Assembly (NCBI RefSeq): GCF_014647475.1
Contig: NZ_BMPG01000001.1
Coordinates: 62,001-126,000 of the forward strand
Source: Halocalculus aciditolerans
GTDB taxonomy: Archaea; Halobacteriota; Halobacteria; Halobacteriales; Halobacteriaceae
Direction of reading: 5' to 3'
Length of the DNA stretch: 64,000 nt
The notes beneath the pieces are model-generated. The model saw only the letters and a program-made list of their open reading frames with translations, made no database searches and was not told where the DNA came from. Positions 45,146 to 46,898 of this stretch are shown in pieces. A program made the translations under genes and the position numbers. Numbering within the stretch: position 1 is the first letter of the stretch; each line of letters starts with the position of its first letter.

Positions 45146-45307
45146 ATGCGGTGTCACTACTGCGACTCCAACGCCGACCTCTCCGTCGAGAAGGACGGCG
45201 TCCGCGTCGCACTCTGTGAAGACCACTTCCAGGACCGCCTGGACGAACTGGCCGACTCCGACGCGCTCGCCGAACTCCGAGAGCAACTCGACATCGACCG
45301 AGCCTGA
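45146..45307 (+). CDS. DUF6757-like small zinc-binding protein
   Basis: 53-residue protein beginning MRCHYCDSNADLSVEKDG, with LCEDHFQDRLDEL and REQLDIDRA at the C-terminus. The Cys-x2-Cys and Cys-x2-His pairs suggest one zinc. It resembles a short haloarchaeal family (DUF6757) without known function. ATG at 45146 follows CCCTAATCATCCCTC. It directly precedes the non-coding repeat array. Confidence 0.82.
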   Translation: MRCHYCDSNADLSVEKDGVRVALCEDHFQDRLDELADSDALAELREQLDIDRA

Positions 45308-45375: not shown

Positions 45376-45512
45376 TTTAAGTCGTTCCCGCGACATCGCG
45401 GGAATCTCCGATTCCCGCTATTCAGCCAGAAGTCTTCGACTTCTGGCGATAAGCAGTAGATACGAAGCACTTCTCAGCACCCTACGCCGCGTAGCCACTG
45501 CTCCGCGTTGCC
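45376..45512 (+). repeat. Array unit A (with hairpin insertion)
   Basis: Begins TTTAAGTCGTTCCCGCGA, then carries an extra 56 bp with palindromes at 45386-45403 (TCCCGCGA/TCGCGGGA) and 45425-45447 (GCCAGAAGTC/GACTTCTGGC). It continues with the shared GATAAGCAGTAGATACGAAG (45448-45467), CACTTCTCAGCAC and CTACGCCGCGTAG. Confidence 0.8.
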
Positions 45513-45528
45513 CCTCCCCCGACGTTCC

Positions 45529-45615
45529 TTTAAGTCATTCCCGCGATAAGCAATAGATACGAGCGAGGTGCGGCGCGAGTTCTGCGCCGGCACACTACTC
45601 CCACAGAGCCGACCG
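45529..45615 (+). repeat. Array unit B (variant)
   Basis: TTTAAGTCATTCCCGCGATA at 45529 leads into AGCAATAGATACGA. The following segment differs from the other units and forms a stem CGGCGC/GCGCCG around GAGTTCT, then returns to CACACTAC. The 5' part is conserved while the downstream stem is replaced. Confidence 0.75.
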
Positions 45616-45636
45616 GCCGTCGACGGCACTCATTCG

Positions 45637-45716
45637 TTTAAGTCGTTCCCGCGATAAGAAGTAGATACGAAGCACTTCTCGGCACACTACGCCGCGTAGC
45701 CGCTGCTCCGCGTTGT
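45637..45716 (+). repeat. Array unit C
   Basis: TTTAAGTCGTTCCCGCGATA at 45637, then AGAAGTAGATACGAAGCACT, TCTCGGCACACTACGCCGCG and TAGCCGCTGCTCCGCGTTG. It is nearly identical to units A and D apart from single substitutions. Confidence 0.85.
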
Positions 45717-45730
45717 CGTCTCCTCATTCG

Positions 45731-45800
45731 TTTAAGTCGTTCCCGCGATAAGCAGTAGATACGAAGCACTTCTCAGCACACTACGCCGCGTAGCGACGCG
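45731..45800 (+). repeat. Array unit D
   Basis: TTTAAGTCGTTCCCGCGATA at 45731, then AGCAGTAGATACGAAGCACT, TCTCAGCACACTACGCCGCG and TAGCGACGCG. After this the array passes into unrelated palindromic sequence. Confidence 0.85.
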
Positions 45801-45937
45801 TACCCTCGCGGCTTCGCCGCTCGCTCGTCCCACGCGTGCACGCAAGCACGTGTGGCTCACTGGCCGAGCGGTCGTTTCGCTCAGGCTCGTCGCTCACGCC
45901 TCGACTCACGCTGTTCGTCTTAGCGTTCGCTCGTTCC

Positions 45938-45968
45938 GAGCCTGAGGCAGCAACGCCGCCTCAGGCTC
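45938..45968. terminator. Strong hairpin (possible terminator of the array)
   Basis: Arms GAGCCTGAGGC and GCCTCAGGCTC form a perfect 11-bp stem around nine bases. It is followed by CGTGTACT, the same octamer that follows the hairpin at the ferredoxin 3' end (46032). Confidence 0.5.
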
Positions 45969-46009
45969 GTGTACTCACGGGTCGCTACGCTTCCCCGTTC
46001 GTTCTTTTC

Positions 46010-46898
<889 letters not shown>

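Follow-up and report, generated by a model that had tools for sequence, protein, structure and literature searches.

Haloarchaeal promoters of the canonical type carry a B recognition element (BRE) and a TATA box of the TTTAA type located about 25-30 bp before the purine where transcription starts, with an A-rich element around -10. In bacteria, the small RNA (sRNA) arrays CcsR1-4 and AbcR are formed by tandem homologous units that are expressed under one stress promoter. In this work we analyzed a stretch of 64,000 nucleotides from Halocalculus aciditolerans (contig NZ_BMPG01000001.1, positions 62,001 to 126,000), hereafter the window, which in a gene-free region carries a 34-bp element repeated four times in tandem (45376-45764, + strand, the first copy being split). 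This element, referred to here as the epsilon box, is an undescribed promoter-like element that is found almost only in haloarchaeal genomes carrying rpoeps, the gene for the epsilon subunit of RNA polymerase.

Epsilon, an additional RNA polymerase subunit of Halobacterium and certain other haloarchaea, improves the use of native templates, and its "biological relevance" is regarded as "enigmatic" (PMC8305020). As related in this review (PMC8305020, citing Madon & Zillig 1983, Leffers 1989), the 1983 description was that epsilon lets Halobacterium RNA polymerase transcribe native DNA; in 2021 its relevance was still given as enigmatic (PMC8305020). No description of a DNA target, promoter class or regulon of epsilon was found in a literature search, and a text search with the letters of the motif returned only unrelated matches; the epsilon subunit mentioned in a paper on RosR belongs to glutamate mutase and is unrelated. 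After 40 years without a known role for this protein, the box offers concrete candidate target sites in Halobacterium salinarum, a genetically tractable species with public dRNA-seq data where rpoeps, the gene that the boxes track, is OE_1279R.

The element has the form TTTAAGTNNYTCTSGYSAYAA-N5-TAGATACGA and is widespread in haloarchaea. From 198 unique instances the consensus TTTAAGTNNYTCTSGYSAYAASNNRTAGATACGA was obtained, which covers the TATA box (TTTAAGT), the conserved spacer that follows it and, within the conserved start region TAGATACGA, the predicted start site. Columns 1-34 are nearly invariant, TTTAA is invariant, and positions 1-7, 11-12, 15, 18, 20-21, 27-28, 30-31 and 33 are fixed in 98-100% of the instances. 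There is almost no signal outside approximately -10 to +38 relative to the first T, and beyond about +8 of the predicted start hardly any conservation is left; outside the consensus the sequence shows no more than a slight preference for CC/GC some 10 bp upstream and, directly after the consensus, a run rich in purines. If position 31 is taken as +1, the TATA box would be placed at about -30 to -24 and the invariant A-A at about -11/-10. Together with AYAA at approximately -13 to -10 in this same register, the invariant TTTAA supports the proposal of the first-pass annotation that the units carry haloarchaeal TATA and start-site signals. The TTTAA box, the purine start and the A-rich sequence around -10 are shared with the canonical BRE/TATA promoter; in contrast, about 20 extra positions between the TATA box and the start, plus the start region, are fixed or nearly so, and the TATA box is immediately preceded by pyrimidine/GC-rich sequence, unlike in the canonical promoter. 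A conserved spacer is unusual in an archaeal promoter. The members of this family are intergenic and are homogenised within genomes: the 19 spacer positions show on average 2.66 differences within genomes versus 5.99 between genera, even at unrelated loci. Such likeness would be anticipated if a single trans-acting factor reads the sites, and gene conversion could contribute to it.

The distribution of the box was surveyed across the class, in a set of 394 genomes. With one mismatch at most, the 34-mer is present in 107 of them, of which 106 also have a strong rpoeps; the remaining one (G366) is a draft genome in which the contig of about 5.9 kb stops just past the box. When the 21-nt core was used, it was detected in 160 genomes, the same number that carry rpoeps; both are present in 152 genomes, 8 have only the box, 8 have only rpoeps, and 226 have neither, whereas the reversed pattern matched in one genome. 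Seven of the eight genomes with only rpoeps carry GTCGCAA-type variants or cores with one mismatch. Among the eight with only the box, four carry distant epsilon homologues, and three (G244, G312 and G381) have one identical variant site, TTTAAGTTGCTCCGGCCACAA, that we read as unrelated. The same association is seen at a finer taxonomic level: in family f5 the single genome with the strict 34-mer is also the only one with a strong rpoeps (G141), and in families f1, f6, f7 and f14 and genera g20 and g37 the box and the gene are present together or absent together in each genome, except for the incomplete draft G366. The first-pass annotation had named a restriction of the units to this strain, together with an absence of transcripts from any unit, as the result that would speak against it; conservation was found far beyond this strain, which removes that objection. 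The original observation therefore holds and is far more general than could be seen from the window, the main added fact being the tie to the epsilon gene.

Position leads to the same gene. The majority of the arrays flank rpoeps, the commonest neighbour; 41 of them are upstream of it in the same orientation and 13 convergent, these counts being approximate given that they come from heuristic codon-trained gene calls. In 18 of 20 sampled genomes that fail the strict pattern, a divergent box adjoins rpoeps; in Halococcus-type genomes with several rpoeps copies, boxes adjoin most of the copies listed. In H. salinarum there are two boxes, both beside rpoeps; in strain DSM 3754 (contig NZ_VRYN01000002.1) they occupy 471966-471999, in front of a DsbA/FrnE-like gene, and 472780-472813, in front of rpoeps itself. 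Other recurrent neighbours are DsbA/FrnE-like, RlaP-like, mutS and menA-like genes. The linkage of the element to the epsilon gene, by occurrence and by position, is well supported, and a functional link between both is very probable.

The association extends to relatives of epsilon that have diverged considerably. In twelve genomes epsilon is represented by distant homologues only (about 29-43% identity), and in six of these genomes (G089, G349, G283, G396 twice, G292, G112) a box is located shortly downstream of the homologue gene on the same strand, a layout also found on two plasmids; on three further plasmids the box is about 200 bp upstream of the homologue. The box adjoins the genes of distant homologues, plasmid-borne ones of about 30% identity included, in two arrangements. 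Homologues H1-H4, H9 and H10, encoded on plasmids, are annotated as "DNA-directed RNA polymerase subunit epsilon". In a second plasmid group, formed by L254 (a Natrinema thermotolerans plasmid), L256 (Halarchaeum pCBA1220-05) and L257 (Halobacterium hubeiense pSTJ003), the epsilon-like proteins have an acidic C-terminal extension and the box is about 200 bp upstream of the gene; a TATA-box-binding protein (TBP) is also encoded close by in pSTJ003.

These plasmids bear on the idea that the box is the operator or promoter of a regulon under the control of a different DNA-binding protein, a regulon that would supply epsilon and in which rpoeps would be the most conserved target. The conserved spacer is placed where a repressor or an activator could bind, and rpoeps is the most frequent neighbour, as this idea would require; however, no gene for another regulator accompanies the boxes consistently, and the boxes follow even homologues of about 30% identity on plasmids of differing gene content. 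We consider this explanation unlikely.

In the group where the box is downstream of the homologue, it stands directly before about 440 nt that have no convincing ORF. The folding of this region gave z values of -3.6 to -5.5 versus mononucleotide shuffles at seven loci, 26 of 119 consensus pairs show two-sided changes in five sequences, and the 5' helix is 88% paired whereas slid controls reach at most 57%; an Rfam scan of the plasmid loci gave nothing above the gathering score. A structured region placed immediately after the box is the best sign that the box may act as a promoter, and that non-coding RNA may be among its products. The box thereby also draws attention to a family of epsilon homologues that are encoded on plasmids and coupled to a structured non-coding region for which Rfam has no match. 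The module composed of a plasmid or mobile epsilon homologue, the box and the region of about 440 nt was observed at L219, L224, L221, L228, L218, L229, L252 and L253; where checked, this region is followed by an ORF beginning like MFDPNHYVHDQSYVPPINRPHA and then by an ORF of about 100 aa. Plasmid systems with this region occur, for instance, in Haladaptatus sp. QDMS2 and Halorussus pelagicus. It is possible that the L219-type arrangement represents a new mobile module with an undescribed RNA.

From the sequence comparisons we propose, with somewhat more confidence than doubt, that the units belong to a dedicated class of extended promoters that would fire short non-coding or leader transcripts and would autoregulate rpoeps; that epsilon uses the box directly is, to a similar degree, rather probable. 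RNA polymerase carrying epsilon, or epsilon itself, would recognise the spacer and start region absent from ordinary haloarchaeal promoters, and the epsilon-RNA polymerase would start short non-coding or leader transcripts at the box. The boxes beside rpoeps would form an autoregulatory loop, a few neighbours may also be controlled, and tandem copies may raise the dose or the sensitivity. By analogy, this arrangement would resemble bacterial alternative sigma factors and the archaeal paralogues of transcription factor B (TFB) and TBP that have dedicated promoters, in that an accessory initiation component is paired with an extended promoter, and the latter recurs beside the gene of the former; the box would suggest that Archaea have a dedicated promoter class tied to an RNA polymerase subunit rather than to a TFB/TBP paralogue. 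The broader proposition, that in haloarchaea the epsilon-RNA polymerase recognises an extended promoter of its own and initiates there in a sigma-like way, apart from the scheme of TBP/TFB paralogues, mainly for non-coding RNAs and for the control of its own gene, and that this pair of factor and promoter is also borne on plasmids together with the structured RNA of about 440 nt, is advanced tentatively, since for us it is almost evenly balanced with a slight inclination to doubt.

Several observations weigh against this proposal. The Fisher value for the co-occurrence, 1e-87, should not be used at face value because the genomes are not independent. rpoeps has its own leaderless TATA-like box, at -36 to -20, in 27 of 35 genes versus 5 of 434 control windows, and proximal leaderless promoters of their own were also seen in some other neighbours; where the adjacent gene is not rpoeps, the last box is directed toward the gene start in 44 cases and in the opposite sense in 33 (n = 77, likewise approximate). 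Regarding the protein, no Pfam domain was matched in epsilon, the HHalign comparison of epsilon with TFB was negative (E 0.2-0.5, probability below 1%), and Foldseek retrieved Brf2, TFIIB and cyclins at E values of 0.6-2.8, which are not significant; thus, unlike in the systems of the analogy, epsilon is not detectably a sigma factor or a TFB. Given that the fold matches are not significant and the profile comparison is negative, membership of epsilon in the TFB family is not claimed. The AF2 model of epsilon has an all-helical core (pLDDT about 85) with a possible helix-turn-helix (HTH) at its end.

Because rpoeps and some neighbours have leaderless promoters of their own, the box is not simply a gene promoter. 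The candidate role of ordinary promoter of the adjacent gene was rejected, considering the inconsistent orientation and the presence of proximal promoters, and a box is seldom the only promoter of the gene that follows; the independence from ordinary gene promoters put forward in the first-pass annotation is supported in this respect. It could be argued that tandem boxes are decoys or landing sites that titrate epsilon-RNA polymerase, or that feed nearby ordinary promoters, giving no functional transcript. The existence of multi-box arrays, the unconserved bodies, and the boxes located 40-230 bp before the starts of genes equipped with leaderless promoters of their own would agree with such a role, but the TATA box, the AYAA around -10 and the start region are conserved as in a used start, and some arrays lie between convergent genes where there is nothing to feed; we regard this explanation as quite improbable.

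The array of the window lies in one such convergent gap of about 720 bp, given that the flanking genes, both from gene calls, occupy 45146-45307 (+) and 46025-46345 (-). The left gene encodes a 53-aa Zn-ribbon protein and is a synteny anchor with two Halarchaeum genomes, and the right one, convergent to the array, encodes a ferredoxin. The Halarchaeum genomes have the same slot, with identical gene order and one or two boxes in conserved orientation. This synteny, the absence of any viral contig with the box among those searched, and the fact that no terminal repeats or target duplications were seen and that only the promoter-shaped core is conserved, count against the box being a mobile repeat, selfish or miniature, that travels along with rpoeps, as its dispersed and multicopy nature and its presence on plasmids might otherwise suggest; this explanation is disfavoured as very improbable. 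Epsilon was not found in viral contigs either.

In agreement with the positions and spacings first described, TTTAAGTCnTTCCCGCGA starts exactly at 45376, 45529, 45637 and 45731, at start-to-start spacings of 153, 108 and 94 bp, and as reported no ORF follows any of the four units in the window. The 21-nt core matches four times in the window versus 0.00 in 100 dinucleotide shuffles. A search for the same sequence elsewhere in this genome, as the first-pass annotation had suggested, yielded one clear further copy (G000:C2:841609), flanked by mutS on one side and by the 3' end of rpoeps on the other. Units B, C and D, backed by the family alignment and the shuffles, have intact 34-bp boxes at 45529-45562, 45637-45670 and 45731-45764, with predicted starts at about 45559, 45667 and 45761, respectively. 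The body of unit B (45563-45636) includes the hairpin GGTGCGGCGC-GAGTTCT-GCGCCGGCAC, which resembles those in the Halarchaeum units and is not significant versus shuffles. From the repeat comparison, the body of unit C (45671-45730; GAAGCACTTCTC..CTACGCCGCGTAGC) is common to units A and D, and units C and D are 97% identical across 72 nt; CTGCTCCGCG, previously ascribed to A, C and D, is present only in A and C, not in D. Units B-D would fire rightward, with transcripts that would either stop at the palindromes preceding the ferredoxin gene or run antisense to this gene. The stretch past unit D (45765-46024, +) is rich in palindromes, for example 45937-45951/45955-45969, and has no ORF.

As for the nature of the products, the downstream bodies differ between loci, and 196 chromosomal unit bodies showed no folding excess versus dinucleotide shuffles (mean z values of 0.04 and 0.03, with -0.05 in the upstream control); an Rfam scan of the window gave nothing above the gathering score. 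The chromosomal units are not structured RNAs, and an array of structured RNA genes, as a form of the short RNA genes contemplated in the first-pass annotation, is not supported for them, although the idea of RNA genes receives partial support from the plasmid relative that precedes a structured non-coding region. For the window units, short unstructured transcripts or pure binding sites are possible. A TTCT-centred hairpin was rejected as a general feature, as it occurs only in Halarchaeum, the window genome and scattered others. The array resembles CcsR1-4 and AbcR in having tandem, near-identical units in a gene-free region; unlike them, the epsilon-box family conserves the promoter and not the RNA body, and conserved RNA structure is absent from its chromosomal units. 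An sRNA family of the kind proposed in the first-pass annotation, in which the box is the promoter, the variable body of 40-100 nt is the regulatory RNA and the tandem copies are its multiple members, an arrangement that may fit the use of the box by epsilon, has on its side the independence from gene promoters with no clear orientation bias except at rpoeps, the body common to units A, C and D, the hairpins of 6-9 bp around GNNTTCT in Halarchaeum units and unit B, and the plasmid relative; it conflicts with bodies that lack folding excess, conservation between loci and an Rfam family, and we consider it possible though on the whole doubtful.

The interruption of unit A was confirmed, and its letters were corrected, since it reads CACCCTACGCCGCGTAG and not CACAC. 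The 5' half of its box (TTTAAGTCGTTCCCGCGA, 45376-45393, +) includes the TATA box and is separated from the 3' half (TAAGCAGTAGATACGA, 45450-45465, +) by 56 nt (45394-45449, +) with two perfect hairpins and CGA at both sides. Unit A is probably inactive, because the insert moves the TATA box 56 nt from the start. The insert is a copy of a dispersed double-hairpin repeat that has at least six other partial copies in this genome (G000; C1:746001, C1:636357, C2:18280, C1:881973, C2:77657 and C1:492054), formed by hairpins with variable arms and terminating in CCAGAA..TTCTGGCGACAAA. The terminus of this palindromic repeat is similar to the core of the box, TTCTGGCGACAAG, and this similarity may be the reason why the insertion is in register.

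Several strong inverted repeats are present at 45800-46032, from the array to the stop codon of the ferredoxin gene, and are likely transcript ends. In Haladaptatus, a palindrome of the TTAGTAnnnnTACTAA type lies about 100-150 nt downstream of the boxes at L058, L148, L107, L118 and L163; at L058 and L148 the box and this palindrome precede a small HTH gene, and the palindrome looks like a second operator between the box and the gene.
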